Part shown: positions 10,912 to 40,966 of the stretch, one piece after another | How positions within the stretch are numbered: the first letter of the stretch is position 1 | Layout of the letters: each line of letters starts with the position of its first letter | Source: Mycolicibacterium litorale | GTDB lineage: Bacteria; Actinomycetota; Actinomycetes; Mycobacteriales; Mycobacteriaceae | Assembly (NCBI RefSeq): GCF_014218295.1 | Contig: NZ_AP023287.1 | Coordinates: 2,232,001-2,296,000, forward strand | Direction: 5' to 3' | DNA length: 64,000 nucleotides | Made by a program: the position numbers and the translations under genes | Notes under the pieces: model-generated | What the model was told of the DNA's origin: nothing | Database searches by the model: none | Seen by the model: only the letters and a program-made list of their open reading frames with translations

Positions 10912-11241
10912 TCAGTGGCGGCGGCGCCACACGACGACGCCCAGCACGACCACCACGGCGACGACGACCGCGGCGACCGGGACCGATTTCTGCGGATTGT
11001 CGGTAACGACGTGTTGCGCTGTACGGGCCTTGTCGGCCACGACCTGCTGTGCCGTATGCGCGGTGTCGGTGACACGCTGTTTGGTCTCGTCGACCTTGTC
11101 TCTGGCCTGCTGTTTGACGTCGAGCTTGGCCGAGAGCGCCTCGACCGTCTCGCCGAGCTCCTGACGCGTGGCTTCGATATCGGCCTCGATGTCCTCGACG
11201 CCGGCCTCCGGGCCGGGTTCGGGGCGGTCGGGTGCGGTCAT
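10912..11241 (-). CDS. DUF3618-type membrane-anchored protein
   Basis: The 109-aa protein starts at ATG 11241, whose first bases overlap the preceding stop as ATGA. The N-terminal half is a helical, charged segment (DIEATRQELGETVEALSAKL), the hallmark of DUF3618 proteins, followed by an amphipathic coiled region (KVDETKQRVTDTAHTAQQVV). Near the C-terminus is one membrane span (VPVAAVVVAVVVVLGVVVW) with a basic tail RRRH. Such proteins usually sit beside a holin-like membrane protein, as here, and are thought to bind the membrane surface. Role unknown. Last gene of a minus-strand pair, downstream of the GAF-ANTAR regulator. Confidence 0.85.
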   Translation of the reverse strand: MTAPDRPEPGPEAGVEDIEADIEATRQELGETVEALSAKLDVKQQARDKVDETKQRVTDTAHTAQQVVADKARTAQHVVTDNPQKSVPVAAVVVAVVVVLGVVVWRRRH

Positions 11242-11639
11242 GACGCTCGGTCCTTTACCTCTTGGATGTCGGCCTTGACGGTTTCCACCGTCCGGGGTGC
11301 GGCCGGGGTGACTTCCTCGGCCTGCTTCTTGCTCACCAGCGCCGCGATGCCCGCGATGACGAACAGCACCAGCGCGACGATCAGCGCCGCCGCCCACACG
11401 GGCAGCACCAGGGACAGGGCGGCCACCGCCGCGGCGATAACCGTCGCCAATCCCAGGAACGCGAAAAGCCCTGCGACGCTGAGCAACCCGGCACCGATGC
11501 CGGCGTGTTTGGCGGATTCCTGGAATTCCTTCTGCGCCAACCGCAACTCGTCGCGCACCAGCCGCGACGTCTGGGCGGACAGTTGGCTGAGCAGTTCTCC
11601 GAGCGACGCATCGGCGCCCGGCTTCGATTCGAGACTCAT
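11238..11639 (-). CDS. phage-holin-like (Holin-X family) membrane protein
   Basis: The 133-aa protein begins at ATG 11639. An N-terminal amphipathic helix (LGELLSQLSAQTSRLVRDEL, then RLAQKEFQE) is followed by two long membrane spans, LLSVAGLFAFLGLATVIAAA and WAAALIVALVLFVIAGIAAL, and a charged cytoplasmic tail. This is the pattern of the actinobacterial Holin-X / Phage_holin_3_6 family, which are chromosomal proteins and not true lysis holins. It overlaps the DUF3618 gene by four bases, so the two are translationally coupled and likely act together at the membrane, perhaps in the stress response. Confidence 0.85.
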   Translation of the reverse strand: MSLESKPGADASLGELLSQLSAQTSRLVRDELRLAQKEFQESAKHAGIGAGLLSVAGLFAFLGLATVIAAAVAALSLVLPVWAAALIVALVLFVIAGIAALVSKKQAEEVTPAAPRTVETVKADIQEVKDRAS

Positions 11640-11710
11640 CACGCACCAACCCTCTGTGTTGCCTGTGTGAGGATGTGGTGCCCCGCCTCCGGCGGGCGCA
11701 AACCCCGCCG

Positions 11711-12427
11711 TCAGATCCCGGAGGAAGTCGCCTTCTCGGTGAGGTCGGTCGCGACCTGGATCAGCGGAACGTTCGAGTCCTGCGACAGTTTGCGCAGCAA
11801 CGCGAACGCCTGCACGGCATCGACGCTGTAGCGCTCCATGATCATGCCCTTGGCCTGACCGATGGTGTCGCGGCTGGCCAGCGCGTGTTTGAACTGCTCG
11901 TCGCGACGCGCCGAATTCCAGGCCACCGAGGAGTGTGCGGCGAAGATCAACCCGATCTCGCGCGTGCCCTGACCGAGTGCGTGCGGCTTCTCGGCGTAGA
12001 CGTTGAGCGCACCCATGGTCTCGTCGGCGATGAAGAGCTGGAACGCCATGACCGACCGGATCGGCGTCTGCTCGAGCACGTCGCGCCGGTACAGCGGGAA
12101 GCGGTCGTCCTGCTCGAGATCGTCGACGTGGACGGTGCGCTCCTCCCAGGCCGCGGTCAGGCAGGGGCCTTCGTGGTGGCGCTGCTGGATCTCGTCGAGC
12201 AGCACCGGCCACCGGTGCGTCGCCGCGGGGGTGTCGATCTTCCTGGCGTTGCGGGTGACCGTCACGCCGGCGTAGTCGGCGCCAGGGATCTCGGCCGCCG
12301 CATGCTCGACCAGTTCGGCGAGCACCGCGTCGGAGTCGCCGTCGCCCCGACCGTGCAGCTCCTGCACGAGGTCGGCGATTCGCCGGTGAACTCCATCGAG
12401 GCCGGCAGGTTCGTTCACCAGCACCAT
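11711..12427 (-). CDS. GAF-ANTAR transcription antitermination regulator
   Basis: The 238-aa protein has an N-terminal GAF sensor (about residues 25-170, with GADYAGVTVT and IRSVMAFQLFIADETMGALN) and a C-terminal ANTAR RNA-binding domain (ALASRDTIGQAKGMIMERYS through LLRKLSQDSN). ANTAR proteins bind paired hexaloop hairpins in leader RNA and prevent termination. I prefer ATG 12427 because GGAGGA lies ten bases upstream inside the longer frame; the alternative is TTG 12457. It lies 71 bases before the holin-like gene on the same strand and may regulate that operon. It is divergent from the 368-aa membrane protein, with about 60 bases between starts. Confidence 0.88.
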   Translation of the reverse strand: MVLVNEPAGLDGVHRRIADLVQELHGRGDGDSDAVLAELVEHAAAEIPGADYAGVTVTRNARKIDTPAATHRWPVLLDEIQQRHHEGPCLTAAWEERTVHVDDLEQDDRFPLYRRDVLEQTPIRSVMAFQLFIADETMGALNVYAEKPHALGQGTREIGLIFAAHSSVAWNSARRDEQFKHALASRDTIGQAKGMIMERYSVDAVQAFALLRKLSQDSNVPLIQVATDLTEKATSSGI

Positions 12428-26825: not shown

Positions 26826-27428
26826 ATGGCCAAGAGGACGACCGCACCCGGCCCCCGCGACGAACGGGGTGTGCTGGCCGGCCGGATCCTCGCCGCCGCC
26901 CGCACCGCGTTCGCCGAACACGGCGCGGCCGGAACCACCATCCGGGCCGTCGCCCGGGCCGCCGACGTCGACCCCGCGCTGGTGTACCACTACTTCACGT
27001 CCAAGGAACGCCTGCTCGACGCCGCCACGGACCCACCGCAGCGCTGGCTGGAGAGCGTCGCCCGGACCTGGACCACCCCGCTCGACGACCTGGGCGCCGC
27101 GCTGCTGAGGCTGATGCTGGGAGCGTGGGCCGACGACGAGATCGGCCCGGTGCTGCGCGCGGTGCTGCAGACGGCGGCGCACGAGCCGTCCACGCGGGAG
27201 AAGTTGCGCGCGATCGTCGAGCGCAGCCTCATCGGGGTCTCGCAGCTGGGGACCGACGACCGGGACCGCCAGGTCCGCAGTGGACTGATCTCCTCGCAGA
27301 TCATGGGGCTGGCGATGATGCGCTACATCTGGCGGATCGAACCGGTGGCCTCGATGTCGGAGGACGAACTCGTCGCCGCGGTCGCGCCGAACCTGCAGCG
27401 CTACATCGACGGCGATCTGTCCGGTTAG
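26826..27428 (+). CDS. TetR-family repressor
   Basis: The 200-aa protein has an N-terminal helix-turn-helix (ILAAARTAFAEHGAAGTTIR, then AVARAADVDPALVYHYFTSK), typical of TetR, and a C-terminal ligand domain with helices ending in ALVSEDEL-like sequence. I start at ATG 26826 (MAKRTTAPG). The frame is open to 26778, but that segment contains one of the operator repeats. It likely represses the divergent monooxygenase-hydrolase operon and itself. It converges with the NCS1 transporter gene, whose stop it overlaps by four bases. Confidence 0.88.
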   Translation: MAKRTTAPGPRDERGVLAGRILAAARTAFAEHGAAGTTIRAVARAADVDPALVYHYFTSKERLLDAATDPPQRWLESVARTWTTPLDDLGAALLRLMLGAWADDEIGPVLRAVLQTAAHEPSTREKLRAIVERSLIGVSQLGTDDRDRQVRSGLISSQIMGLAMMRYIWRIEPVASMSEDELVAAVAPNLQRYIDGDLSG

Positions 27429-29092
27429 GCCTGGGCCGGCAGCACGTGGTCGCCGACCCGGTCGGTGGACAGGCACAGCGAGCAGATGAACGCGTCGTGG
27501 GTCGCGCACGCCACCATGTCCGGCCGTTCGTAGTCGTGGCGGCAGACGTGGCAGGCGAGCTGTTCGCCGGACGGGTTGCCGTATTCGTCGTACATCGGCA
27601 GGTCGATACCGTCGTCGGTGCGGCGCAGGTAGTAGCGGCCCTTGGTGGCGAGCGCGAACACCGGCGGCAGCACCAGGGCCAGGCCGATGGCGACCAGCGG
27701 CGAGTACGGGCGGACCGTCTCGCCGAGCAAGCCGAAGAACGCGAGGATCGACACCCCGGCGGCGATCAGCATGGACCCGAAGCCGACCGGGTTGATCGCG
27801 TACAGCATGCCGCGGCGGAACTCCGGCGCCTTGGGGGAGATGCCCAGCAGGTGCTTGTTGACGACGATGTCGGAGGCCACTACGACGACCCAGGCCATCC
27901 CGCAGTTCGCGTAGAACCCGAGGATCGTGTTGAGGAAGTCGAACATGTTGGCTTCCATCAGGATCAGCGCGATCAGCAGGTTGAAGGCCAGGAACACCAG
28001 CCGGCCGGGGTAGCGCTTGGTGACGCGGGTGAACGAGTTCGTCCACGCGAGCGATCCGGAGTAGGCGTTGGTGACGTTGATCTTGATCTGGCTGATGACG
28101 ACGAGCAGGACCGCGAGGGTCATCGCCAGCCAGCCGGGCAGGAAGTTCTCGTAGATCTCCAGGAACTGGTGCACCGGCTGGTTGGCGATCCCCGCACTGT
28201 CGGCGACGTTGGCGATCAGGTACACCGCCAGGAACAGGCCGACGATCTGTTTGACGGCGCCGAAGAACACCCAGCCGGGCCCGGCCAGGATCATCCACGT
28301 CCACCAACTACGGCTGTTCTCCGGTGTCTTCGGCGGCATGAAGCGCAGATAGTCGATCTGCTCGGCGATCTGGGCGATCAACGACAGACACACGCCGGCG
28401 GCCAACAGCGTGGAGCCGAGGTCGAACCCGCCCGCACCCTCCTCACCCGGGTAGGCGAAGAACTGGCCGACCGACTCGGGATGGCTCACCACGAGGTAGA
28501 CGAACGGGGCCACCATCAGCACCAGCCACAGCGGAGTCGTCCAGACCTGCAGCGTGGAGAGCACTTTCATGCCGTAGATCACCAGCGGGAAGATGACGAT
28601 CGTCGAGACCGCGTAGCCCAGCCACAGCGGGACGCCGAGGCCGAGCTCGAGCCCCTGGGCCATGATCGAGCCCTCGAGGGCGAAGAAGATGAACGTGAAG
28701 GTGGCCATGATGACGTTGGTGACCACGGACCCGTAGTAACCGAAGCCGCTGCCACGGGTGATCAGGTCGAGATCCATGTTGTAGCGGGCCGCGTAGTAGG
28801 CGAGCGGGAATCCGGACAGGAAGATCACGACGGCGAAGATCAGGATTCCCCACAGCGCGTTGGTGGTGCCGTAGGCGATGCCGATGTTCGCGCCGATCGC
28901 GAAGTCGGCCAGGTAGGCGATGCCGCCGAGTGCGGAGACACCCACCACGCCGGTCGACCACTTGCGGTAGCTGCGCGGGGCGAACCGCAGCGTGTAGTCC
29001 TCCAGCGTCTCCTTGGTGGCGCTTACCCTGCCCGCGTCGGTGTCCGCGTCGGTTGCCGGGGGCACCTGGTCCCTGCTGACGTCCTGGGTCAT
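27425..29092 (-). CDS. NCS1-type purine/cytosine permease with zinc-finger-like C-terminus
   Basis: The 555-aa protein has about twelve membrane spans with NCS1 features: the N-terminal RFAPRSYRKWSTG, the GANIGIAYGTTNALWGIL region, a central RSWWTWMILAGPGW loop, and INPVGFGSMLIAAGVSI near the end. It probably imports a nucleobase, hydantoin or related compound with a cation. After the last span (about residue 475) is an 80-residue cytoplasmic tail with Cys514, Cys517, Cys529, His532, Cys537 and Cys540 (CHVC, CATH, CSLC), which should bind one or two zinc ions and is not part of the transport fold. Position downstream of and convergent to tetR links it loosely to the monooxygenase block. Substrate uncertain. 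Confidence 0.85.
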   Translation of the reverse strand: MTQDVSRDQVPPATDADTDAGRVSATKETLEDYTLRFAPRSYRKWSTGVVGVSALGGIAYLADFAIGANIGIAYGTTNALWGILIFAVVIFLSGFPLAYYAARYNMDLDLITRGSGFGYYGSVVTNVIMATFTFIFFALEGSIMAQGLELGLGVPLWLGYAVSTIVIFPLVIYGMKVLSTLQVWTTPLWLVLMVAPFVYLVVSHPESVGQFFAYPGEEGAGGFDLGSTLLAAGVCLSLIAQIAEQIDYLRFMPPKTPENSRSWWTWMILAGPGWVFFGAVKQIVGLFLAVYLIANVADSAGIANQPVHQFLEIYENFLPGWLAMTLAVLLVVISQIKINVTNAYSGSLAWTNSFTRVTKRYPGRLVFLAFNLLIALILMEANMFDFLNTILGFYANCGMAWVVVVASDIVVNKHLLGISPKAPEFRRGMLYAINPVGFGSMLIAAGVSILAFFGLLGETVRPYSPLVAIGLALVLPPVFALATKGRYYLRRTDDGIDLPMYDEYGNPSGEQLACHVCRHDYERPDMVACATHDAFICSLCLSTDRVGDHVLPAQA

Positions 29093-29242
29093 CCGGCAAA
29101 GCTAGGGCCGTGCTGTTTCGGCGCCGTGACGAACATGTTGCACCCGGCGGCGGGTTCCCGCAGGTCTGCATACGGCACCGCGATCCGATCCACGTAGACT
29201 CGGCTACCGGACTCGAACTTGAGTGAGAGAGGTAGTTCGCCG

Positions 29243-29995
29243 ATGAGCGGCCATTCCAAGTGGGCGACCACGAAGCACAAGAAGGCGATCATCGACGCCC
29301 GCCGAGGGAAGAACTTCGCCAAGCTGATCAAGAACATCGAGGTGGCGGCCCGCACCGGCGGCGGTGATCCGGGCGGCAACCCGACGCTGTACGACGCCAT
29401 CCAGAAGGCCAAGAAGAACTCGGTGCCCAACGACAACATCGAGCGGGCCCGCAAACGCGGCGCCGGTGAAGAGGCGGGCGGCGCCGACTGGCAGACCATC
29501 ACCTACGAGGGGTACGGCCCCAACGGGGTCGCCGTGCTGATCGAGTGTCTGACCGACAACCGCAACCGCGCGGCCGGCGAGGTGCGTGTCGCGATGACCC
29601 GCAACGGCGGCAACATGGCCGACCCGGGTTCGGTGGCCTACCTCTTCTCGCGCAAGGGCGTGGTGACACTGGAGAAGAACGGTCTGACCGAGGACGACGT
29701 GCTGATGGCCGTGCTGGAGGCCGGCGCCGAGGAGGTCAACGACCTCGGCGACAGCTTCGAGATCATCTCCGAGCCCACCGATCTGGTGGCCGTGCGGACC
29801 GCGCTGCAGGAGGCGGGTATCGACTACGACTCCGCCGATGCCAGCTTCCAGCCGTCGGTCACCGTGCCGCTCGACGCCGAGGGCGCCCGCAAGGTGATGA
29901 AGCTGGTCGACGCCCTCGAGGACAGCGATGACGTCCAGGACGTCTACACCAACGCCGACATCCCCGACGAGATCCTGGCCCAGCTCGAGGCGTAG
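29243..29995 (+). CDS. YebC/PmpR family DNA-binding or translation factor
   Basis: The 250-aa protein starts at ATG 29243 with the invariant [20 protein letters not shown] and continues with [17 protein letters not shown] and the [17 protein letters not shown] core. Full length and all three domains are present. Members act as transcription regulators (PmpR) or, as shown recently for YebC in other bacteria, in relieving ribosome stalling at proline runs. In M. tuberculosis the homologue (Rv2603c) is downstream of pdxT. Here a 5-kb block separates them. It ends 21 bases before the convergent polyprenyl synthase gene. Confidence 0.95.
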
Positions 29996-30016: not shown

Positions 30017-31117
30017 TCAGGCCGTCGGCAGGAAGGACAGCTCGGTGCACTCGACGAGGATCTCCGACAGTCCCGCGACCGTCGTCGCATCCGTGTTCTC
30101 CGCCAGTTCTGCCACCGCACCGTGCGCGATGTCGACCAGGTCGGCGATGCGCCGTCCGACCCGGTCCGCGGCGCCGCACTGCAGCACGACCGTCTGCACC
30201 TCGGCGATGGCCGCCGCATCCGCAGCGGTGTCGCCGACGATGCTGGCCAGCAGGCTGCGGTCCAGATCGTCGGCCAGCTCGTAGGCCGCGCCGAGCAGTT
30301 CGGTGGGTTTGCCGGCCCGGATGTCGTCACCGGTCTGTTTACCGCTGGTCTTCGTGGTGCCGAACAGGTCGGCCAGATCGTCGCGCAGCTGGAATGCCCG
30401 GCCGACCGCGGCGGCGTATCGGCCCAGCGTGGCCGCGGTGGCGGCCGACGTCGACCCGGCCAGTGTCAGCCCCAGCTCGGCGGGACGTTCGACGGTGTAG
30501 GCGCTGGTCTTGTAGTGCAGGATCTTCTCCGCCGTCGCCGCCTGGTAGTCGCGGCCCGCCTGCGCCTGCAACTCCAGCAGCTGACCGGCCAGCACCTCCA
30601 GTCGCATGGTGCGGAACACTCGCGAGGTGCGGCGCGCGACCTCCTCGGGCAGGCCCGCCACCGCGTCGTCGAACGTGTCGTGCGCCGCCGACCAGAGCAG
30701 ATCGCCGACCAGCAGCGCCATGTTGTCGCCGAACTCCCGTGAGTCGCCCCACCCGGCTCCGGTGCGGTGGTCCGCCGCCAGCGCCGCGCGCACCGACGGT
30801 TGGCCGCGGCGCACGTCGGAACTGTCGATCACGTCGTCGTGGACCAGGATCGCCGCGTGCAGCAACTCGAGCGCGGCGGCCAGGCCCACCAGCGGCCCCG
30901 GCGACGCATCCGCGTCCGCGCCGACCCGCCACCCCCAGTAGGCGAACCGGGGGCGCAGGCGCTTACCCCCGGCCTGCACGGCGGACCGGCACAGCCCGGC
31001 CACGGTCGAGAGGCTTTCGTCGACCGACCGCAGCGGTTCGGTGACACTGTCGGTGACGACGGTCTGCAGGTGATCTTCGAGGGCCGACAGGAAGGCCGTC
31101 TGGTCGGTGTCGGACAC
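30017..31117 (-). CDS. polyprenyl diphosphate synthase (GGPP synthase type)
   Basis: The 366-aa trans-prenyltransferase has the first aspartate-rich motif in ILVHDDVIDSS, the GGKRLRPRFAYWGW substrate motif, the RGQPSVR region and the second motif FQLRDDLADLFGT. Both Asp motifs are intact, so it should condense IPP with allylic diphosphates. Product length (geranylgeranyl or other) cannot be fixed from sequence. GTG 31117 is chosen because GAGG lies shortly upstream and protein similarity begins there; the frame is open much further. It has no isoprenoid partner genes nearby and is divergent from the permease operon. Confidence 0.9.
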   Translation of the reverse strand: MSDTDQTAFLSALEDHLQTVVTDSVTEPLRSVDESLSTVAGLCRSAVQAGGKRLRPRFAYWGWRVGADADASPGPLVGLAAALELLHAAILVHDDVIDSSDVRRGQPSVRAALAADHRTGAGWGDSREFGDNMALLVGDLLWSAAHDTFDDAVAGLPEEVARRTSRVFRTMRLEVLAGQLLELQAQAGRDYQAATAEKILHYKTSAYTVERPAELGLTLAGSTSAATAATLGRYAAAVGRAFQLRDDLADLFGTTKTSGKQTGDDIRAGKPTELLGAAYELADDLDRSLLASIVGDTAADAAAIAEVQTVVLQCGAADRVGRRIADLVDIAHGAVAELAENTDATTVAGLSEILVECTELSFLPTA

Positions 31118-31208
31118 GACATCCTCACTCTCTGATGGGGCGGCGCCGCGAGTGTATGGGGTCGGAGCCGTGGTTCGGCGCACCCGGCGCCGATCCGGAC
31201 TGCGGGCG

Positions 31209-31345: not shown

Positions 31346-32812
31346 ATGACGTCGAGTGCGCAAATAGGTTCCGCGCCAACGGAATTGAGGCGCGAGTTTT
31401 CGCTGTGGTCGGCGTTCGCCTTCGCCTTCGCCTTCATCTCGCCGATCGTGGCGATGTACGGCATCTACGGTCTGTCGCTGGCCACCGCGGGACCGGGGTT
31501 CTGGTGGACCTTCGTCGTCGTCGGGGTCGGTCAGTGCATCGTGGCGCTCGCCTTCGCCGAACTCGTCTCCCGCTGGCCCTACGAGGGATCGATCTACCAG
31601 TGGACCAGGCGGCTGGCCGGGGAGGTGGCCGGATGGCTCGCCGGCTGGGTCTACATGTGGGCCCTGGTGATCATCATGGCCACCGTCGCCTACGGCGGGG
31701 CCGGGTTCCTGGCTCAGCTGATCGGGATCGAACGTCCGACCGCGGTGCAGCAGAGCATCGTGGCACTGCTGATCCTGCTCGCCGGCACCGGCGCGAACAT
31801 CCTCGGGCGCGGATTCCTCAAGGCGCTGATGTTCGGCAGCATCATCGCCGAGATCGTCGCCTCCATCGGGCTGGGCACCTACCTGCTGATCTTCCACCGC
31901 CACCACGGATTCGACGCGGTCCTGCACGGCATCGACCTGTCCAGCGGATGGTCGTGGGCCTACATCTCCGGTCCGTTCCTGGCCGCACTGGCCTTCACCG
32001 GGTGGTCGATCCTCGGGTTCGAGAGCGCGGGCGCGATCGCCGAAGAGGTCAAGGAGACGCGGCGCAACGTGCCGAAGGCGATGCTGTTCTCCATCGCGTT
32101 CATCGCGCTCGTCATCGCCTACGCCTCGCTGGCCGTCACCCTGGCGGTGCCCGACTTCGAGATGGTGCGCTCCGGTGAGGAACCCGACCCGGTCTCCTAC
32201 GTGCTGAGCAGCGCACTCGGTGAAGCGGCCGTCAAACCCATCCTGCTGGCCTTCGTGATCGGGTTCCTGGCGAGCTTCCTGGCACTGCAGGCGTCGGGTT
32301 CCCGGGTCATCTGGTCCTTCGCCCGCGACAAGGTGCTGCCCGGGTCGGCGGTGCTGTCCAAGCTGTCGAAGACCGAGGCGCAGCCCATCCCGGCGATCCT
32401 GGTCACCACCGTCATCGGGGCGTTCGTCTACCTGATCTCGGCGACCGACGTCTACTCGATCCTGGTCACCTTCACCGCGGGCGGCTACTATCTGGCCTTC
32501 CTGTTCCCGCTGTTGACCGGCCTGGTGTCGCGGCTGCGCGGCACCTGGGAACCCGGCCCGTGGAACCTCGGCCGCTTCGGCACACCGGTCGCCGTGCTGG
32601 CGGTGCTGTGGGTCGGATTCGAGTTCACCAACATCGTCTGGCCGCGCACGGTGTCCGAGTCCTGGTACATGAACTGGGCCTTCTTCGTAGCAATGGGCGC
32701 GATCCTCGCGCTCGGTGCGGTGATCATCAAGGCGCGCAACGTCGGTGGGCGCCGCCTGGAACCGACGGCCGAAGCCACCGGCGCCGGCGAACCCGTCAGC
32801 GAGTCGGTATGA
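31346..32812 (+). CDS. APC-family amino acid/amine permease
   Basis: The 488-aa protein has about twelve spans in APC superfamily arrangement, with the N-terminal RREFSLWSAFAFAFAFISPI, the first-repeat FAELVSRWPYEGSIYQWTRR, and the sequence ILGFESAGAIAEEVKETRRN after span 6, all typical of amino acid-polyamine-organocation permeases. It probably imports the substrate of the downstream catabolic genes, likely a cationic or zwitterionic nitrogen compound. ATG 31346 is preceded by AAAGGGAG. Its stop overlaps the first SDR gene in ATGA, so it is the first gene of the operon. Confidence 0.88.
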   Translation: MTSSAQIGSAPTELRREFSLWSAFAFAFAFISPIVAMYGIYGLSLATAGPGFWWTFVVVGVGQCIVALAFAELVSRWPYEGSIYQWTRRLAGEVAGWLAGWVYMWALVIIMATVAYGGAGFLAQLIGIERPTAVQQSIVALLILLAGTGANILGRGFLKALMFGSIIAEIVASIGLGTYLLIFHRHHGFDAVLHGIDLSSGWSWAYISGPFLAALAFTGWSILGFESAGAIAEEVKETRRNVPKAMLFSIAFIALVIAYASLAVTLAVPDFEMVRSGEEPDPVSYVLSSALGEAAVKPILLAFVIGFLASFLALQASGSRVIWSFARDKVLPGSAVLSKLSKTEAQPIPAILVTTVIGAFVYLISATDVYSILVTFTAGGYYLAFLFPLLTGLVSRLRGTWEPGPWNLGRFGTPVAVLAVLWVGFEFTNIVWPRTVSESWYMNWAFFVAMGAILALGAVIIKARNVGGRRLEPTAEATGAGEPVSESV

Positions 32813-33504
32813 CCGACCGCACCGCCGTCGTCACCGGTGCCGGCAGCGGCATCGGCGCCGAGATCGCCCACATCCTGCAGGCCGGCGGCTGGCAGGTCGC
32901 CTCGATCTCCCGCGAACCCGCACCCGCCATGGACAAGTGGCTGATCGCAGACGTCGCCGAGGAGCGCGAGGTGAACGACGCCATCGCCGAGATCGAGGAC
33001 GCCTTCGGGCACATCGACGCCGCGGTGATCTGCGCCGGGCACTACGAGGAGAGGCCGGCACTCGACATCTCACAGGCCGCCTGGGAGCGGATGCTGCGGG
33101 TGCACGTCGGTGGTCTGGCCCACGTGTGCCGCGCCGTGTTGCCGCAGATGCGGCGCAGGCGCAGTGGGCGCATCGTCGGCATCGCTTCCGAACGGGCGAT
33201 CGGCGGCGGCAGCAACGACGCGCACTACGCGGCGGCCAAGGCCGCGGCGCTGAGCCTGCTCCGCAGCATCGCGGTCGAGGTGGCTCCCGACGGCGTGGTG
33301 GTCAACGCGGTCGCCCCCGGTCCGTGCGACACCCCGCTGCTGCCGCCCGACTCCTGGGAACGGGCCGACGAGTTCACCGCCGGCCTGCCCGCGCGACGCA
33401 TCGCCCAACCCCGCGAGGTCGCCGCACTGGTGCAGGCGCTGCTGGAGGAGGAACTCTTCCTGTGCGGAGAAGTCCTGTCGGTCAACAGCGGAACGGTGAT
33501 CTGA
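32809..33504 (+). CDS. short-chain dehydrogenase/reductase
   Basis: The 231-aa SDR has the cofactor motif VTGAGSGIGAEIA, the NAG-like ICAGHY, and the catalytic YxxxK in DAHYAAAKAAAL, with VVNAVAPGPCDTPLL after it. It should oxidise an alcohol or reduce a carbonyl with NAD(P). ATG 32809 overlaps the permease stop. It is followed one base after its stop by a second SDR-like gene that lacks the catalytic residues, suggesting a hetero-oligomer. Confidence 0.88.
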   Translation: MTDRTAVVTGAGSGIGAEIAHILQAGGWQVASISREPAPAMDKWLIADVAEEREVNDAIAEIEDAFGHIDAAVICAGHYEERPALDISQAAWERMLRVHVGGLAHVCRAVLPQMRRRRSGRIVGIASERAIGGGSNDAHYAAAKAAALSLLRSIAVEVAPDGVVVNAVAPGPCDTPLLPPDSWERADEFTAGLPARRIAQPREVAALVQALLEEELFLCGEVLSVNSGTVI

Positions 33505-33505
33505 G

Positions 33506-34192
33506 ATGCGCGACGAACCCGCCCGCCTACTCGTCACCGGCGTCGACACCACCCTCGGCGCCGCGGTGCGCGACCACTTCACCGAGCGCGGCGCCGCCAC
33601 CGTCGGCACCCGCGGCGGACCGGACGGCACCGACCCGGCCGACGCTGACGCGGTGCGCTCTGCCGTGGCGCGCGCCGTCGACACCATGGGCGGAATCGAC
33701 GCCCTGGTGGTCGCACACGCTCGGCCCGTCGTCGCCCCGATCGGCGACCAGTCCATGGCCGCGTTCTGGGCGCACGTCGACGACACGCTGACCGGGAGCT
33801 TCCTGTACGCCCAGGCCGCCGCCGCCCACATGCGCGACGCGGGCACGGGCGGCCGGATCGTGCTGACCACCTCGCGCTGGCACATCGGCGGACCGCAGCT
33901 CTCCGCGGTCGCGACGGCCGCCGGCGGGGTGGTCGCGCTGACGAAGACGCTGACCCGCGACTTCGGGCCCTTCGGGGTCGGGGTGAACGCGGTCGCGGTC
34001 GGCGCCGTCGATTCCGAGTGGTCGATATGCGATGCGGCAGGCGGTGTTTCGCCCGATGACCTGCCCGCAGGCCGATGCGGCACCGTCGAGCAGGCCGCCC
34101 GCGTCATCGGACTGCTGTGCCGGCTCGACCTCGGCGCGGCCGTCGGTCAGATCGTCAACCTCGACGGTGGATTGTCCCGGAACCGGGTCTAG
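33506..34192 (+). CDS. SDR-fold protein lacking the catalytic Tyr-x3-Lys
   Basis: The 228-aa protein is recognisably SDR-like (LLVTGVDTTLGAAVRDHF at the N-terminus, VVAHAR, GVNAVAVGAVDSEWSI, QIVNLDGGLSRNRV at the end). The glycine motif is altered: TGVDTTLG instead of TGxxxGxG. Where the active-site YxxxK is expected the sequence is PQLSAVATAAGGVVALTK, with no Tyr. It is therefore probably not an oxidoreductase on its own. It may partner the intact SDR encoded immediately upstream, or bind a ligand. ATG 33506 follows the SDR stop by one base. Confidence 0.82.
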   Translation: MRDEPARLLVTGVDTTLGAAVRDHFTERGAATVGTRGGPDGTDPADADAVRSAVARAVDTMGGIDALVVAHARPVVAPIGDQSMAAFWAHVDDTLTGSFLYAQAAAAHMRDAGTGGRIVLTTSRWHIGGPQLSAVATAAGGVVALTKTLTRDFGPFGVGVNAVAVGAVDSEWSICDAAGGVSPDDLPAGRCGTVEQAARVIGLLCRLDLGAAVGQIVNLDGGLSRNRV

Positions 34193-34204
34193 GAAAGGCA
34201 TGCG

Positions 34205-35179
34205 ATGAACAACGACAACAGTTTGTCGGCTGGCCGCACCCACCTCGTGGGTGTGGCCGACCCTCAGGTGCAGCCCCGCTACGCGGGGTGGACCACCTTC
34301 GCGCGGCTCCCGCGGCTGGAGGACGTGGAGCACGCCGACGTGGTCGTGGTGGGCGTGCCGTTCGACAGCGCGGTCACCTACCGGCCCGGTGCGCGCTTCG
34401 GCCCGAACGCGATCCGGCAGGGCTCCCGGCTCATCCGCGGCTACAACCCGGAGCTGGACATCAAACCGTTCGAGGTGTGCCAGTTCGCCGACGCGGGCGA
34501 CATCGCCTGCAATCCGTTCGACATCGGCGAGGCGGTCGACCAGATCACCGGCCGGTTGACCGAACTGCTGAGCAACGGGACCCGTGCGGTGATCCTCGGC
34601 GGTGACCACTCGGTGGCGCTGCCGTCGCTGCGCGCCGCGCACGCCGTCCACGGCCCGATGGCTTTGGTGCACTTCGACGCCCACCTCGACACCTGGGACC
34701 AGTACTACGGGGCCGACATCACCCACGGCTCACCGTTCCGGCGGGCCTTCGAAGAAGGCCTGCTGCTCGACCGCAACATGCACGTCGGGGTGCGCGGATC
34801 GATCTACGACAAGCAGGATCTCGTCGACGACGCGAACTTCGGGTTCTCCGTCATCACCTGCCGGGAGATGGACGCGCTGGGTGCGGAGGGGATGGTCGAG
34901 CGGATCCGCGACCGGGTCGGCGACGCCCCGGTGTACGTCTCGGTCGACATCGACGTCCTCGATCCCGCCCACGCCCCGGGCACCGGGACGCCCGAGGCCG
35001 GCGGAATGTCGAGCCGCGAACTGCTGGAAGTGGTGCGCGGGCTGGACAGCATGAACCTGGTCGGGGTCGACGTCGTCGAGGTCTCGCCGGCCTACGACCA
35101 TGCCGAGATCACCGCGATCGCCGCGGCGAACGTGACCTGGGAGTTCCTGTCCGTTTTCGGAAGAAAGGCGCAACGATGA
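34205..35179 (+). CDS. agmatinase/arginase-family ureohydrolase
   Basis: The 324-aa enzyme has all binuclear manganese ligands of the ureohydrolase family: GGDHSVALPSL, HFDAHLDTWD and SVDIDVLDPAHAPGTGTPEAG, plus the agmatinase-type ending VVEVSPAYDHAEITAIAAAN. Members hydrolyse C-N bonds of guanidino or formimino compounds (agmatine, guanidinobutyrate, formiminoglutamate). The neighbours (Rieske oxygenase, deacetylase-fold hydrolase, formamidase) make a formimino substrate that yields formamide attractive, but a guanidino substrate giving urea cannot be excluded. Start ATG 34205. It overlaps the next gene by four bases. Confidence 0.9.
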   Translation: MNNDNSLSAGRTHLVGVADPQVQPRYAGWTTFARLPRLEDVEHADVVVVGVPFDSAVTYRPGARFGPNAIRQGSRLIRGYNPELDIKPFEVCQFADAGDIACNPFDIGEAVDQITGRLTELLSNGTRAVILGGDHSVALPSLRAAHAVHGPMALVHFDAHLDTWDQYYGADITHGSPFRRAFEEGLLLDRNMHVGVRGSIYDKQDLVDDANFGFSVITCREMDALGAEGMVERIRDRVGDAPVYVSVDIDVLDPAHAPGTGTPEAGGMSSRELLEVVRGLDSMNLVGVDVVEVSPAYDHAEITAIAAANVTWEFLSVFGRKAQR

Positions 35180-36063
35180 CCCCTCCTATCCCCGCCGGTC
35201 CGGTCGAGTGGCCGAACGGCAAGCGCTGTGCGGTCGCCTTCACCTTCGACGTCGACGCCGAGTCACCGCTGCTGACGACGGACCTGGCGTTCGCCGACCG
35301 CATGGGCGCCATGTCGCATCAGGCGTACGGTCCGCTGGTGGGCGTACCGCGGCTGCTGAACATCCTCGACGAATTCCACGTTCCCGCAACGTTTTTCGTG
35401 CCCGGCTACACCGCTCACCGTCATCCCGACGCGATCCGGTCCATCGCCGACGGTGGCCACGAGATCGCCCACCACGGCTACCTGCACGAATCGCTGGTGG
35501 GTGTCGACGAGGCCACCGAACGGGCGATTCTCGAGCGCGGGCTGGAGGCGCTCGACGAGGTCGCCGGGGTGCGGCCGACCGGCTACCGCGCCCCGATGTG
35601 GGAGATGAACTGGCACACGCCGAAGTTGTTGGCCGAGTTCGGGTTCCTCTACGACTCGACGCTGATGGACTCCGACCACCCCTACGAACTCGCCGTCGGT
35701 GACACCTCGCTGGTCGAGCTGCCCGTGAGCTGGGCGCTCGACGACTGGCAGCAGTATTGCTTCGTGCCCGACTTCTCCGGCACCGGCCTGATCGAGACCC
35801 CGGCCAAGGCGATCGAGCTGTGGCGCAGCGAACTCACCGCCATGTGCGACGTCGGCGGCGCGTGGATCCTGACCAACCATCCGTTCCTGTCCGGCCGTCC
35901 CGGCCGGGCCGCCGCGCTGCGCGACTTCATCGCCGAGGTGTGCGCGATGGACGACGTCTGGGTGGCGGGCATGTCCCAGATAGCCGAGCACGTGCGCGCC
36001 CAGCACCTCACCCCGCGCACCCTCACCCGTCCCGTCCCGACCCCGGTCACAGCCCGACCGTAG
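35176..36063 (+). CDS. NodB/PuuE-like deacetylase-fold hydrolase
   Basis: The 295-aa protein has the polysaccharide-deacetylase fold: motif 1 AFTFDVDAESP, motif 2 HEIAHHGYLHE with the H-x3-H metal ligands, and motif 3 GYRAPMWEMNW. This version, with an FDVD first motif and no signal peptide, is like PuuE allantoinase and cyclic-imide hydrolases, which open cyclic amides in the cytoplasm. It probably hydrolyses an amide or lactam bond in a small N-containing metabolite. ATG 35176 overlaps the ureohydrolase stop, and the Rieske gene starts 13 bases after its end with AGAAGGAG as ribosome binding site. Confidence 0.85.
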   Translation: MTPPIPAGPVEWPNGKRCAVAFTFDVDAESPLLTTDLAFADRMGAMSHQAYGPLVGVPRLLNILDEFHVPATFFVPGYTAHRHPDAIRSIADGGHEIAHHGYLHESLVGVDEATERAILERGLEALDEVAGVRPTGYRAPMWEMNWHTPKLLAEFGFLYDSTLMDSDHPYELAVGDTSLVELPVSWALDDWQQYCFVPDFSGTGLIETPAKAIELWRSELTAMCDVGGAWILTNHPFLSGRPGRAAALRDFIAEVCAMDDVWVAGMSQIAEHVRAQHLTPRTLTRPVPTPVTARP

Positions 36064-36076
36064 AAGGAGAATCACC

Positions 36077-37135
36077 GTGAACCGTGACGCCCTGACCCCC
36101 GAGAAGCTGCGCGAGGCCTACCAGCACGTCTGGTTCGTCGTGGCCCGGTCGCAGGACATCGACACCCCGCAGTCGGCCACGCTGCTCGACACCAACCTCG
36201 TGGTGTTCCGCGATTCGACCGGTGCCGCACGCGTCACCGACCGACGTTGCATCCACCGCGGCGCCAACCTCGCCGACGGCAAAGTCGTGGGCGACAGCAT
36301 CCAGTGCCCGTACCACGGCTGGCAGTTCGACGGCAGCTCCGGAGCGTGCTCGCGGATCCCGTCGCTGTCCGCCGACGGACGCATCCCCCCGAAGGCCGCG
36401 ATCAAGGCCTACCCGGTGATCGAACGGTTCGGGCACGTGTGGACGTGCCTGGGCGATCCGGTGTTCGACCTGCCCAACCCGCCGGAGATCGCCGATCTCG
36501 ATCTGGAATGGCGGTCGGCCGAACCGATCCACGCCGACTGCGGGTTCATGGCGGCCACCGAGAACTTCCGCGACATGGCGCACTTCCCGTTCGTGCACGA
36601 ACCGTCCATGGGCGACGTCAACCCGGTGGTGAGCGATCTCGACGTCAAGCGGGACGGCCGTGAGGTGTGGGCGTCCTACTACTACGAACAGGTCCCCTCC
36701 GCGAAGTTCTCCGCGGTCGGCGACGCGTGGATGCACTACCACTCCTACGCTCCCGGAATCGCCACCATCCTCTACGATTTCGGCCCCGAGACCGGTAAGC
36801 GCTACCTGGTCGACTTCCCCTCGCCGGTGAGCTACGACAAGTGCGTCATCTTCTGGGGTGTGGCCACCGACCGCTATTTCAAGGGCGGCACCGTCGACGA
36901 GATCCTGGCGGTGGAGACGCTGGTGTTCAATGAGGACACCCCGGTGCTGGAAGGCCTTGAGCCCAAAGAGGTTCCGCTGGCCGGTCAGGCATTCGAGGTC
37001 TCCGCGCCCGCGGACATCTACACGCTGAACTACCGCCGCGCGACCCAGTACGCCGTACAGACCATCCAGGAGGCCCGCGGGCTGGTCGAGGTGGCCGCTG
37101 AACCGGCCGGGGCCAACGGCCACGTGCACGCGTGA
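36077..37135 (+). CDS. Rieske non-heme iron oxygenase, alpha subunit
   Basis: The 352-aa oxygenase has the Rieske [2Fe-2S] motif with Cys58, His60, Cys77 and His80 (RRCIHRGANL and IQCPYHGWQFDG). The mononuclear iron site shows N-F-R-D-x2-H-x4-H in ENFRDMAHFPFVHE, including the bridging Asp. The C-terminal part is the usual helix-grip fold. It is a VanA/PobA-like single-component oxygenase that would hydroxylate, demethylate or cleave a ring substrate with electrons from the next gene. The start at GTG 36077 has AGAAGGAG upstream. The stop overlaps the reductase start in GTGA. Confidence 0.92.
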   Translation: MNRDALTPEKLREAYQHVWFVVARSQDIDTPQSATLLDTNLVVFRDSTGAARVTDRRCIHRGANLADGKVVGDSIQCPYHGWQFDGSSGACSRIPSLSADGRIPPKAAIKAYPVIERFGHVWTCLGDPVFDLPNPPEIADLDLEWRSAEPIHADCGFMAATENFRDMAHFPFVHEPSMGDVNPVVSDLDVKRDGREVWASYYYEQVPSAKFSAVGDAWMHYHSYAPGIATILYDFGPETGKRYLVDFPSPVSYDKCVIFWGVATDRYFKGGTVDEILAVETLVFNEDTPVLEGLEPKEVPLAGQAFEVSAPADIYTLNYRRATQYAVQTIQEARGLVEVAAEPAGANGHVHA

Positions 37136-38076
37136 GACTGCGCGTCACCCAGCTGCGGCTGGAAGCCGCCGACGTCGTCAGCGTGGTGCTGCGCAGCACC
37201 ACCGGCGACCCGTTGCCGGCGTGGGAACCGGGCGCCCACGTGGCCGTGACCCTGCCGTCGGGACTGGTGCGACAGTACTCGCTCTGCGGAGCCGCCGACG
37301 ACCGGTACACCTACACGATCGCGGTACTGCTCGTCGGTGACGGGCGCGGCGGCTCCCGGGAGATCCATCAGCGACTGCGGCTCGGCGACGTGCTCGAGGT
37401 CGGTGAACCGCGGAACAACTTCGCGCTCACCGACGCGCCGCGATACCTGTTCCTGGCCGGGGGAGTCGGCATCACCCCGATCCTGGCGATGGTGGAATCG
37501 CTGATGACGCAGCCGGATCCGACGCCCTGGCGGATGATCTACGGCGGCCGCAGCCGGGAGGCGATGGCATTCCGGGACCGTCTGCACACCCTCGCCGGTG
37601 TCGAGCTCGTTCCTCAGGACGAGGCCGGGCTGCCCGACATCGCCGGCGCACTGGCCGGCAGTCCGCCGGGAACCGCGGTGTACTGCTGCGGGCCGCCGAC
37701 GATGCTCGCCGCCGTCGAGGAGGCGTGCCGCCGGCACCCACACGTCGTGCTGCACACCGAGCGCTTCACCGCGGCGGCCGAGCCGCAGACGTCCCACGCC
37801 GACGACGGCGCCTTCGACGTCGAACTCGCCCGCAGCGAGGTCACCGTCACGGTGCCCGCCGACAAGAGCGTGCTCGACGCGGTCCTCGAGGTGAACCCGG
37901 ACGTCGCGTTCTCGTGCGCGGCCGGGTTCTGCGGCACCTGCGAGACCAAGGTGCTCTCCGGTGCGGTCGACCACCGCGACGATCTGCTCAGCGCGGACGA
38001 ACAGCAGACGAACGCGACGATGATGATCTGCGTGTCCCGTTCCGCCGGCGGGGGCAAGCTCACGCTCGACCTGTGA
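37132..38076 (+). CDS. PDR/VanB-type oxygenase reductase
   Basis: The 314-aa electron-transfer protein has a flavin-binding barrel (RQYSLCGAADDRYTYTIAVL), an NAD domain (LFLAGGVGITPILAMVESL and VYCCGPPTMLAAVEEAC) and a C-terminal plant-type [2Fe-2S] ferredoxin domain with FSCAAGFCGTCETKVLSG and a late Cys (MMICVSRS). This is the phthalate dioxygenase reductase arrangement. It passes electrons from NADH to the Rieske oxygenase encoded just before it. GTG 37132 overlaps that gene's stop, so both subunits are made together. Confidence 0.92.
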   Translation: MRLRVTQLRLEAADVVSVVLRSTTGDPLPAWEPGAHVAVTLPSGLVRQYSLCGAADDRYTYTIAVLLVGDGRGGSREIHQRLRLGDVLEVGEPRNNFALTDAPRYLFLAGGVGITPILAMVESLMTQPDPTPWRMIYGGRSREAMAFRDRLHTLAGVELVPQDEAGLPDIAGALAGSPPGTAVYCCGPPTMLAAVEEACRRHPHVVLHTERFTAAAEPQTSHADDGAFDVELARSEVTVTVPADKSVLDAVLEVNPDVAFSCAAGFCGTCETKVLSGAVDHRDDLLSADEQQTNATMMICVSRSAGGGKLTLDL

Positions 38077-38107
38077 GAACACGATCAGCCGCCTAGACTC
38101 CGCAGCC

Positions 38108-39301
38108 ATGACAGTGCAGGCGGAGGCTGCGGCGGCATCACCCCACGACGGCAGCGTCAGCCTCCGCGAACTGCTGGCCGAGCCGAGCCTGCACGTCGAC
38201 ACCCTCACCCCGATCGACGATCTCGACCGGCCGATCCGGTACGTGTACCCCACGGAGCTCGCCGACCCATCGCCCTACCTGGCCGGCGAGGAACTGATCC
38301 TCAGTGTCGGCGTTCCGGTGGCCGACCAGGGTGCCGAGACGATCCGCCGCTACGTCACCACGCTCACCGACCGCGGTGTGGCCGCGCTGCTGATCGGGCT
38401 CGGCGACATGTTCGACGAGCCGCCGCAGGCGTTGGTGCGGGCATGCCACGACAGGGATCTTCCGCTGTTGATCCAGCGCGCCGCCGTACCGTTCCGCCGG
38501 ATCGTCGACTGGGCGGAATCCCGGCGCGCGGCCGACCGCGAGGTCGACGCGCGGGAACGCGAGCTCGGCGCGTTGCTGCGCTGGTTCGTGGCAGGCACGC
38601 TCGGCGCCGGACCGGTCGAGTCGGCGCTGACCCGCTACGGGCTGGCCGGCGCACCGGTCGTCGTCTGCGCCTTCGCCGCCGAGGCCCATACGAAGGTGCA
38701 CGATCTGGTGGACCGTCATTCCGGTGCCGTGGCGATCCTCGACGACCGCATCGTGGCCCTCTGCCCACAGACGGCCGAGTTCACCGCGGATCTGGCCGCG
38801 TCGGAACTGCCGTGCGGGGTGGCCATCGGGGCGGACGCCCAGTCGATGGCGTACGCGATCCCGGAGGCCCTCGAGGCGCTGCGCGAGGCGATCCGCCGGC
38901 GCCGCACCGTGCACATCGACGAGATCGCCACGCTGGACGGGTTGTTGGCGGCCGTGCCGAAGGTGCGTCTGGTGCCGTTCGTCCACCGCCTGCTGGTGCC
39001 GCTGGTCGACCACGACAAGGTCAACAACTCCTACCTGGTGGCGTCGCTGGAGGCGTTCCTGGCGCCGGACAACGACATCTCCACGGCGGCCAACCGGCTG
39101 TACGTCCACGTCAACACGTTGCGGAACCGGTTGGCCAAGATCGCCGAACTCACCGGTGCCAACCCGCTCGACGAGACCGACCGCATCAACTTCCGCATCG
39201 CGCTGTGGGCCGCACACAACATGGGCATGCGGGAGGGTCGCGCGCCCGCACCGCAAAAGGTCGCGCCGCACAACTCATTCGGTTCGCCGGCCGGGATGTA
39301 G
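38108..39301 (+). CDS. PucR-family transcriptional regulator
   Basis: The 397-aa protein has an N-terminal PucR/PurC-like sensor domain (VSLRELLAEPSLHVDTLTPI, then GEELILSVGVPVADQGAETI), a GGDEF-like linker, and a C-terminal PucR helix-turn-helix (NDISTAANRLYVHVNTLRNR, then LAKIAELTG). PucR activators control use of purines, allantoin and other nitrogen compounds. It lies in the same direction as and downstream of the oxygenase genes, and most likely senses the pathway's substrate and activates the operon. ATG 38108 has no strong ribosome binding site. Confidence 0.9.
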   Translation: MTVQAEAAAASPHDGSVSLRELLAEPSLHVDTLTPIDDLDRPIRYVYPTELADPSPYLAGEELILSVGVPVADQGAETIRRYVTTLTDRGVAALLIGLGDMFDEPPQALVRACHDRDLPLLIQRAAVPFRRIVDWAESRRAADREVDARERELGALLRWFVAGTLGAGPVESALTRYGLAGAPVVVCAFAAEAHTKVHDLVDRHSGAVAILDDRIVALCPQTAEFTADLAASELPCGVAIGADAQSMAYAIPEALEALREAIRRRRTVHIDEIATLDGLLAAVPKVRLVPFVHRLLVPLVDHDKVNNSYLVASLEAFLAPDNDISTAANRLYVHVNTLRNRLAKIAELTGANPLDETDRINFRIALWAAHNMGMREGRAPAPQKVAPHNSFGSPAGM

Positions 39302-39409
39302 CGGCCTACACCCCGAGGTCGGATCGGCTGTCGAGTTCTCCAACTGCCGAGCGGGCGGCCTGTGCGGTCGGTAATGTGGCGCTCGCCGAACTCCGCGGAC
39401 AGTGAGGGA

Positions 39410-39700
39410 ATGCCGTTGATCCTCTATGCCTTTCGCTGCGAAGCCGGGTGCGGCACCACGCAGCGGATGTACTCGATGCACAGCCGTCCGGATGTCGTCG
39501 ACTGCCCCGACTGTGCCGGCCCGGCCCGCCGGATGATGGCGGCGCCGAACCTGGGCGGCACCGGCGGCGCCGCCATGGCGCTGCAGGACGCCACGCGGGC
39601 CACCGCCGACCGTCCCGCGGTCGTCACCGCACCGCCGCCGGGGACCGGCCGGCGTCCCGTCAGCGCCAACCCGCTGCACCGAAAGCTCCCGCGACCGTAG
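39410..39700 (+). CDS. FmdB-like zinc-ribbon protein
   Basis: The 96-aa protein starts at ATG 39410 with GAGGG just upstream. It has an FmdB-type zinc ribbon: YAFRCEAGCGTTQ with two Cys and VDCPDCAGPARRM with a CxxC, followed by a Gly/Ala and Pro-rich tail. FmdB proteins are named for a gene linked to formamidase in methylotrophs and may regulate it. Here it is 12 bases before the formamidase gene, which supports a shared function. In-frame extension to 39362 lacks protein character. Confidence 0.85.
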   Translation: MPLILYAFRCEAGCGTTQRMYSMHSRPDVVDCPDCAGPARRMMAAPNLGGTGGAAMALQDATRATADRPAVVTAPPPGTGRRPVSANPLHRKLPRP

Positions 39701-39712
39701 AAGGAGATCCCC

Positions 39713-40966
39713 ATGCCCGACGTAGTCTTTCCGCTCGATTCCACGAAGAAGTTCACCGAACAGGAAAAGGTCGGGCACAACCGCTGGCATCCCGACATCC
39801 CGGCCGCGGTGACGGTGCAGAAGGGTGACTCCTTCCGGGTGCACTGCCGCGAATGGTTCGACGGCGCCATCCACAACGACGACTCGGCCGACGACATCCT
39901 CAACGCACCGCTGACCACCGTGCACACGCTGTCGGGCCCCATCGCCGTCGAAGGCGCCAAACCCGGCGACCTGCTGATCGTCGACATCCTCGACGTCGGC
40001 CCCATCCCGCAGGAGGATTCCGGACCGCTCGCCGGTCAGGGCTGGGGGTACACCGGCATCTTCGCCACCCGCAACGGCGGCGGATTCCTCACCGAGCAGT
40101 TCCCCGACGCCTACAAGGCGATCTGGGACTTCTCCGGACAGAAAGCCACCTCGCGCCACGTGCCCGGCGTCGAGTTCACCGGCATCGTGCACCCGGGCCT
40201 GATGGGGACGGCCCCGTCGGCGGAGCTGCTGTCCACCTGGAACACCCGCGAGGCGGCGCTGATCGCGACCGATCCCGACCGGGTGCCGCCGCTGGCGCTG
40301 CCGCCGGAGCCGCAGGACGCCATTCTCGGCAGCCTCACCGGTGACGCGTTCACCAAGGCCGCCGCGGAGGCCGCGCGCACCGCGCCGCCGCGGGAGAACG
40401 GCGGCAACCAGGACATCAAGAACCTGACCAAGGGCAGCCGGATCTTCTACCCGGTGTTCGTCGACGGTGCGAACCTGTCGGTCGGCGACCTGCACTTCTC
40501 ACAGGGCGACGGAGAGATCACCTTCTGCGGTGCGATCGAGATGGGCGGCTTCATCGATCTGCGCGTCGACGTCATCCCCGGCGGAATGGAGACGTACGGG
40601 GTGAGCGAGAACGCGATCTTCATGCCGGGCAACACCGATCCGCAGTACTCCGAATGGCTGGCGTTCTCCGGCACCTCGGTCACCCTCGACGGCGAACAGC
40701 GTTACCTCGACTCGCATCTGGCGTATCAGCGGGCCTGCCTGCACGCGATCGACTACCTGACGAAGTTCGGATACAGCCCCGAGCAGGCCTACCTGCTGCT
40801 GGGTGCCGCGCCGATCGAGGGCCGGCTCTCAGGCGTGGTGGACATCCCGAATGCCTGTGCGACCGTGTACATTCCGACGGCGATCTTCGACTTCCCGGTG
40901 GCACCGAGCGCGGCGGGGCCGGTGAAGATCGACCCGGGGATCGGGGCGCCGCACTCGGCGTTCTGA
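39713..40966 (+). CDS. fmdA: formamidase (FmdA_AmdA family)
   Basis: The 417-aa enzyme hydrolyses formamide to formate and ammonia. Its whole length fits the acetamidase/formamidase family: KVGHNRWHPDIPAAVTVQKG at the N-terminus, the GPIAVEGAKPGDLLIVDILD stretch, GVEFTGIVHPGLMGTAP, GGNQDIKNLTKGSRIFYPVF, QGDGEITFCGAIEMGGFIDL and the C-terminal YLLLGAAPIEGRLSGVVDIP. ATG 39713 has AGAAGGAG upstream. It is the terminal gene of the catabolic run and would take formamide made by the ureohydrolase-family enzyme, recovering nitrogen. It converges with the alpha/beta hydrolase gene, only seven bases away. Confidence 0.92.
   Translation: MPDVVFPLDSTKKFTEQEKVGHNRWHPDIPAAVTVQKGDSFRVHCREWFDGAIHNDDSADDILNAPLTTVHTLSGPIAVEGAKPGDLLIVDILDVGPIPQEDSGPLAGQGWGYTGIFATRNGGGFLTEQFPDAYKAIWDFSGQKATSRHVPGVEFTGIVHPGLMGTAPSAELLSTWNTREAALIATDPDRVPPLALPPEPQDAILGSLTGDAFTKAAAEAARTAPPRENGGNQDIKNLTKGSRIFYPVFVDGANLSVGDLHFSQGDGEITFCGAIEMGGFIDLRVDVIPGGMETYGVSENAIFMPGNTDPQYSEWLAFSGTSVTLDGEQRYLDSHLAYQRACLHAIDYLTKFGYSPEQAYLLLGAAPIEGRLSGVVDIPNACATVYIPTAIFDFPVAPSAAGPVKIDPGIGAPHSAF

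Follow-up and report, generated by a model that had tools for sequence, protein, structure and literature searches.

A conserved Rieske oxygenase operon of Mycolicibacterium litorale as a candidate for the catabolism of a cyclic N-C-N compound

The Hut route employs HutI, HutG and formamidase. Its logic, in which a cyclic N-C-N amide is opened, an arginase-family enzyme acts next and formamide possibly appears for a formamidase to remove, may also be recognized in a run of ten genes at positions 31346-40966 of the Mycolicibacterium litorale DNA analysed here (the window: 64,000 nucleotides, contig NZ_AP023287.1 of assembly GCF_014218295.1, positions 2,232,001 to 2,296,000 of the forward strand). 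The run encodes an APC-family permease, two proteins of the short-chain dehydrogenase (SDR) fold, SDR1 and SDR2, an arginase-family enzyme (AGM), a hydrolase with the NodB fold (PUUE), a Rieske oxygenase (RO) with its reductase (RED), a PucR-type regulator, an FmdB-like protein and the formamidase FmdA (Table 1). A first-pass annotation made from the letters alone had described such a same-strand run, and all ten open reading frames (ORFs) are indeed there on the plus strand, with the coordinates, order and families it gave. Unlike the Hut set, this one uses a NodB-fold opener, contains an oxygenase and SDRs in addition, and its AGM lies under the HutG cut-off. No match to urocanase was found in the host genome (one contig, 5.63 Mb), while five of 14 control genomes were positive, so that the locus was not classed as a Hut system and AGM is not part of the standard Hut route. 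With chances slightly better than even we take the run to be an operon that is inducible and serves the breakdown of a cyclic N-C-N compound, such as a cyclic amidine, an imidazole-like ring or a cyclic guanidine.

Other described systems resemble single components of the locus. Among solved sequences RO is closest to SxtDIOX and SxtT, followed by NdmA in third place; all have the Rieske and VanA_C-like architecture, but the scores amount only to 90-119 bits (92.5 for NdmA), the gene neighbourhood is different and so, probably, is the substrate. The substrate of SxtDIOX and SxtT is a guanidinium compound. The closest solved relatives of AGM are proclavaminate amidinohydrolase, guanidinopropionase and guanidinobutyrase, from which it differs by belonging to a module group of its own and by sharing its operon with RO and PUUE. 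An SDR pair in which one subunit is inactive has a precedent in the heterotetramer BbsCD (PDB 7pcs), where BbsC is the inactive one, though its similarity to SDR2 is only that of SDRs in general and a complex of SDR1 with SDR2 is hypothetical here. Metformin hydrolase MetCaCb, encoded in a catabolic cluster, likewise pairs an arginase-family enzyme with a pseudoenzyme, but the dead partner described in the available text of PMC11271267 is itself an arginase-family protein, whereas here it would be an SDR. The hin system for histamine catabolism in Pseudomonas also has a permease and converts an imidazole compound into an amino acid in several steps; in the available text of PMC8231116, however, it includes an aminotransferase, an aldehyde dehydrogenase and a LysR regulator (as compared by description), and the same text reports hin genes to be absent from the Gram-positive bacteria sequenced by then. 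The kpi pathway of 4-hydroxypyridine, which has a formimino intermediate, was rejected because its enzymes, as far as PMC7356986 describes them, belong to other families. No description of this gene set was found in the open-licence PMC literature, a scope that leaves most subscription journals outside, and the first-pass annotation likewise knew of no described pathway with exactly this set.

Support for a functional unit comes from the conservation of gene order, assessed in other loci by tblastn placements and Pfam matches. The order APC-SDR1-SDR2-AGM-PUUE-RO-RED-PucR is identical in seven genomes, i.e. in the window and in loci L007 (Mycolicibacterium septicum), L093, L094, L095, L096 and L114, where RO is 79-95% identical to that of the window; in 7/7 the permease comes first, RED follows RO and PucR is eighth. 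Thus co-conservation in order, which the first-pass annotation had left to a neighbourhood comparison, holds for genes one to eight. Flanks similar to the yebC/ruvC surroundings of the window were found in L095 and L096, while those of L007, L093, L094 and L114 (in the last case six context proteins only were compared) are different, except that L093 and L114 share the polyprenyl synthase gene; the genes of the operon therefore stay united at two or more chromosomal locations. This polyprenyl synthase-like gene, divergently oriented, adjoins the operon in the window, L093, L095, L096 and L114, and had no match in L007 or L094. Ratios of non-synonymous to synonymous substitution rates (dN/dS) of 0.02-0.32 for nine of the ten operon genes (FmdB was left out) indicate that purifying selection acts on these nine. 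In L007 the match to RED is split over two reading frames (11073-11432 and 11491-12000), possibly owing to a frameshift or a sequence error.

The oxygenase itself has a narrow distribution. At E<=1e-100 it was detected in six of 119 genomes including the host, five of them with the operon-type protein (81-100% identity) and the sixth (G041, 49%) with a member of the sister clusters considered below; the closest named carriers are Mycolicibacterium species with up to 94% identity. Among 396 genomes of the phylum, with at most five candidates scored per genome, only the host itself had RO at E<=1e-95. Relatives with 63-66% identity are known in Pseudomonas and Roseovarius, and Pseudomonas sediminis, Pseudonocardia xinjiangensis and Streptomyces sp. 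AD55 are among the organisms named for RO relatives; a scan of 348 Pseudomonas genomes gave a single match (47%), that of 376 genomes from the class of G124 returned only G124, and one Sinorhizobium plasmid carries a 47% relative in a stretch without annotated features. Of the 80 loci with RO relatives that were kept, inspection covered the five with at least 48% identity (L007-L011) and a small number of others.

The set SDR1-SDR2-AGM-PUUE was also found without RO, at 14 loci. Five long ones (L113, L115, L116, L117 and L120) have the APC gene first and a PucR gene alongside, and nine of about 4 kb (L155, L156, L157, L158, L159, L161, L162, L164 and L176) show the four genes. One of them, L113, is a paralogous module at 5.48 Mb of the host genome; both forms occur together in two genomes, the host (G000) and G1132. 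A search with AGM yielded 47 matches in 26 of 76 genomes, of which 30 were taken as loci (four RO operons, nine RO-less modules and 17 AGM genes without adjoining matches to SDR1, SDR2 or PUUE), so that some RO-less genomes may be missing from the list. The AGM match in L176 consists of two overlapping pieces (1504-2420), a possible frameshift. In the tree AGMs of the RO type and of the RO-less type join at a support of 0.997; two other AGMs, on long branches (L172 and L175), sit among those of the RO-less type, and L160 stands just outside. The module group is marked by S for P at position 199 and N for H at 309. Metal motifs of AGM and PUUE, as well as HYAAAK(A/G) of SDR1, are intact in all 12 module loci surveyed (seven with RO, five without). 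Based on these data we are inclined, a little beyond even odds, to think that the RO operon arose from a widespread, dehydrogenase-based module of actinobacteria by gaining the oxygenase.

The two forms are distinguished by the state of SDR2. While SDR1 of the window has the TGAGSGIG and HYAAAK motifs of a catalytic SDR, in SDR2 both YxxxK and TGxxxGxG are gone in each of the seven RO operons; in the RO-less modules YxxxK is intact in 14/14 and TGxxxGxG in 13/14 (L164 has S for T). For YxxxK the difference, 0/7 versus 14/14, gives a Fisher p of 9e-6 with kinship ignored. The degenerate SDR noticed at first pass is thus real and consistent, and its coincidence with RO, seen in these sequences, is the new point of the present analysis. 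The motif-less form is still under selection, since its dN/dS is 0.20-0.31 between the window and L094, L095 and L096, and 0.19 for the pairs L094/L007 and L093/L114. A structure model built from five sequences (mean pLDDT, the predicted local distance difference test, of 75) matches SDR folds, 7pcs_B among them, and sequence matches include both chains of 7pcs. Probably, SDR2 is a pseudoenzyme in RO operons, and the selection on it together with the BbsCD precedent would suit a role as a pseudoenzyme partner of SDR1. Gene identities and order, the RO-less sister module and the loss of SDR2 residues only where RO is present are read directly from the sequences.

From this gene set we infer a substrate, a sequence of reactions, a complex of SDR1 with SDR2 and a product for AGM, as follows. 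The compound would be taken up by the APC permease, and RO with RED would hydroxylate a ring carbon adjoining nitrogen, or an N-methyl group. SDR1 would oxidise the resulting carbinol to a lactam, the inactive SDR2 probably being part of the same oligomer. PUUE would then open the lactam to an amidino- or formimino-acid, and AGM would cleave at N-C(=NH), leaving an amino acid and either urea or formamide; if formamide, FmdA would convert it to formate and ammonia. PucR would sense the substrate or an intermediate. As a more tentative idea, to which we give clearly less than even odds, an oxygen-dependent pathway was born when the Rieske enzyme replaced a dehydrogenase step; the displaced SDR2, its active site gone, would have remained to support SDR1 structurally, and PUUE and the ureohydrolase would have been retained. 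The two forms would then act on related, but differently oxidised, substrates.

The features of RO bear on the second of these steps. Its residues C58, H60, C77 and H80, D166, and H169, H174 and D287 are invariant across 30 sequences, and we take them to be the ligands of the Rieske cluster and the two histidines and one aspartate at the non-haem iron; with these ligands, the VanA_C domain and the cognate reductase it was assigned to the VanA-type Rieske oxygenases. This type, and the third place of NdmA among its solved relatives, would also suit an N-demethylase, which strips an N-methyl group as NdmA does and leaves the demethylated compound to the older pathway. SDR2, however, has lost its catalytic residues in RO operons, which argues that the older pathway was not simply retained, and no formaldehyde-handling family appeared among the Pfam matches of the ten proteins; N-demethylation therefore seems to us unlikely. 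In sister clusters L009, L010, L011, L097 and L124, a PUUE-like protein, an SDR, an RO of 48-54% identity and RED are encoded on the same strand and AGM is missing (L125 conforms less closely; with it the Rieske proteins span 47-54%). The joint occurrence of these four without AGM fits RO, SDR and PUUE acting as a unit. In L097, L011 and L009 an AAT-type Ntn-hydrolase and a glyoxalase-fold protein are encoded between PUUE and the SDR, with an APC permease nearby.

AGM bears on the choice of substrate. It passes the agmatinase-group model NF002564 (PRK02190; 319.3 bits, cut-off 302) and fails the HutG model TIGR01227 (154.1 bits, cut-off 229.15), so that the arginase-family assignment of the first-pass annotation stood, while its HutG-like label did not. 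Models of the agmatinase type do not separate agmatinases from guanidino-acid hydrolases, and close relatives of AGM bear the database name 'agmatinase'. Since the nearest solved relatives act on guanidino-acids, AGM may release urea, and the substrate may be a cyclic guanidine (creatinine-, 2-aminoimidazoline- or capreomycidine-like): RO and SDR1 would produce a cyclic acylguanidine, PUUE a guanidino-acid and AGM urea, with the formamidase as a bystander. This possibility, which we place somewhat short of even, also draws on the proximity of RO to SxtDIOX and SxtT and on a 49% relative (P0097) named capreomycidine hydroxylase, although a database name is no proof of function, and it would leave the presence of a formamidase in all seven RO genomes unexplained.

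That presence is an argument for an imidazole-type substrate, from which oxidation would give an imidazolone; PUUE would turn this ring into a formimino-acid and AGM would release formamide, for FmdA to convert, the chemistry paralleling that of HutI and HutG. FmdA passes its equivalog model (Table 1), and an equivalog gene occurs in 7/7 RO genomes, fmdBA lying beside the operon in five and FmdA elsewhere in the genome in two (G012 and G1132). Among 61 relatives FmdA is present in 4/4 RO genomes against 10/57 others (p 0.002, kinship ignored), and in a family sample all five genomes seen to have the AGM-PUUE module (G000, G1066, G1102, G1131 and G1132, two of them also with RO) possess it, compared with 119/301 overall. 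The failure to find urocanase also favours this reading, leaving AGM without a place in the standard Hut route. Against it stand the score of AGM under the HutG cut-off with guanidino-acid hydrolases as nearest relatives, and the RO-less modules, which show no link to FmdA in the set of 61 (1/6, G033) and have it in five of ten over all scored, G041, G1066, G1102 and G1131 being added; G037 and G042, with RO-less modules, lay outside the FmdA search and are not counted. A link of FmdA to all AGM modules (10/10: seven RO, three RO-less) was dropped, as RO-less G009, G019, G035, G086 and G088 are without FmdA, and it is kept for RO genomes only.

Neither does fmdBA behave as a fixed part of the operon, a view that was rejected because G002 (L128) and G014 (L130) have fmdBA next to yebC although the operon is missing. 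In L128 (940-1260) the end of yebC is followed by a fragment of polyprenyl synthase matching 30324-30406 and then directly by sequence matching 39325 onward, which reads as a loss of the operon by deletion. In M. smegmatis these genes respond to nitrogen: formamidase MSMEG_4367 is up 3.7-fold and FmdB (MSMEG_4368) 3.1-fold under nitrogen limitation, and none of MSMEG_4369-4378 is named in the main text of that report (PMC4617892). MSMEG_4372, listed as capreomycidine hydroxylase in the available text of PMC5445863, is probably the M. smegmatis RO, the identity of the operon being judged by tag numbers and names. We read fmdBA as a probable unit for nitrogen scavenging, with or without a part in the pathway. 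The host genome has a second formamidase gene (G000:C1 4241035-4242267, L140), 64% identical to that of the window. An imidazole-type substrate is in our estimate possible, at distinctly less than even odds, and judged by the sequences it is about equally likely as a cyclic guanidine. As for the first-pass proposal of ring oxidation, ring opening and formamide release, the conserved operon is real, co-conserved and probably catabolic, and the chemistry is plausible; the formamide ending is partly supported by the FmdA counts but unproven, given the HutG score, the separation of fmdBA from the operon in two of seven genomes, its persistence in G002 and G014 and the 1/6 among RO-less modules.

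The opening step was attributed to a PuuE-like enzyme, and here the NodB-fold family match was confirmed, while the likeness to PuuE is weak. Solved structures matched are PDB 3rxz (594 bits; listed as a polysaccharide deacetylase), 3qbu (129) and PuuE allantoinase 3cl6 (94). From these matches PUUE is a possible cyclic amide (lactam) hydrolase.

Several observations weigh against the catabolic scheme as a whole. With 96.1 bits PUUE misses the cut-off of the PuuE model TIGR03212 (424.6), and its relatives of 56-61% identity occur in other settings without AGM (L118, L119, L121, L122 and L123), so its step may differ. In L008 (1-4234; a Hyphomicrobiales metagenome-assembled genome), where RO is 60% identical, RED is present and neither PUUE nor AGM is found on the 4.2-kb contig. 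The operon's own RO could be an N- or O-demethylase. Finally, the seven RO operons are close kin, and a single event may account for all seven losses in SDR2, their tie to RO being coincidental. In L121 the PUUE relative adjoins a cytosine/allantoin-type permease gene and a PucR gene. L008 has a DJ-1/PfpI-family gene upstream.

The layout of the run is compact. All junctions are overlaps or gaps of less than 15 nt, except RED-PucR (31 nt) and PucR-FmdB (about 108 nt), the latter making fmdBA the loosest joint. SDR1 was assigned the ATG at 32809, the mechanically called ORF opening further upstream. A scan for promoters and terminators gave no promoter-like sites and four terminator-like ones against 2.6 expected, and was not used as evidence. 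Upstream, at 27425-29092, a membrane-protein-like ORF of 555 aa without a Pfam match at 1e-3 resembles, by reading only, a permease of the cytosine/allantoin type.

Table 1. Genes of the run and its flanks, in window coordinates
Feature	Position	Strand	Basis
APC-family permease (AA_permease_2)	31346..32812	+	PF13520 164 bits
SDR1, short-chain dehydrogenase with YAAAK	32809..33504	+	PF13561 144 bits
SDR2, SDR fold without YxxxK and TGxxxGxG	33506..34192	+	motif survey, dN/dS, structure model
AGM, arginase family (ureohydrolase)	34205..35179	+	PF00491 323 bits
PUUE, NodB/polysaccharide-deacetylase-fold hydrolase	35176..36063	+	PF01522 70 bits
RO, Rieske non-haem iron oxygenase, VanA_C type	36077..37135	+	PF00355, PF19112
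RED, NAD-binding and C-terminal 2Fe-2S ferredoxin reductase	37132..38076	+	PF00175, PF00111
PucR-type regulator	38108..39301	+	PF07905, PF13556
FmdB-like zinc ribbon	39410..39700	+	TIGR02605 31.6 bits (cut-off 31.3); Pfam match under cut-off
FmdA formamidase	39713..40966	+	NF045496 703.8 bits (cut-off 500)
Polyprenyl synthase-like gene, divergent from operon	30020..31120	-	PF00348 162 bits
yebC	29219-29995		name read from ORF
ruvC	44427 on		name read from ORF

If the proposed catabolic role is right, several mycobacteria, probably including M. smegmatis as its locus tags suggest, would possess a pathway for an N-heterocycle, and the operon would be a naturally occurring example of an enzyme that became a pseudoenzyme when an oxygenase entered its gene set. 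It would also point to a family of modules formed by its RO-less relatives, and some of the 'agmatinase' names that databases give to relatives of AGM may mislead.

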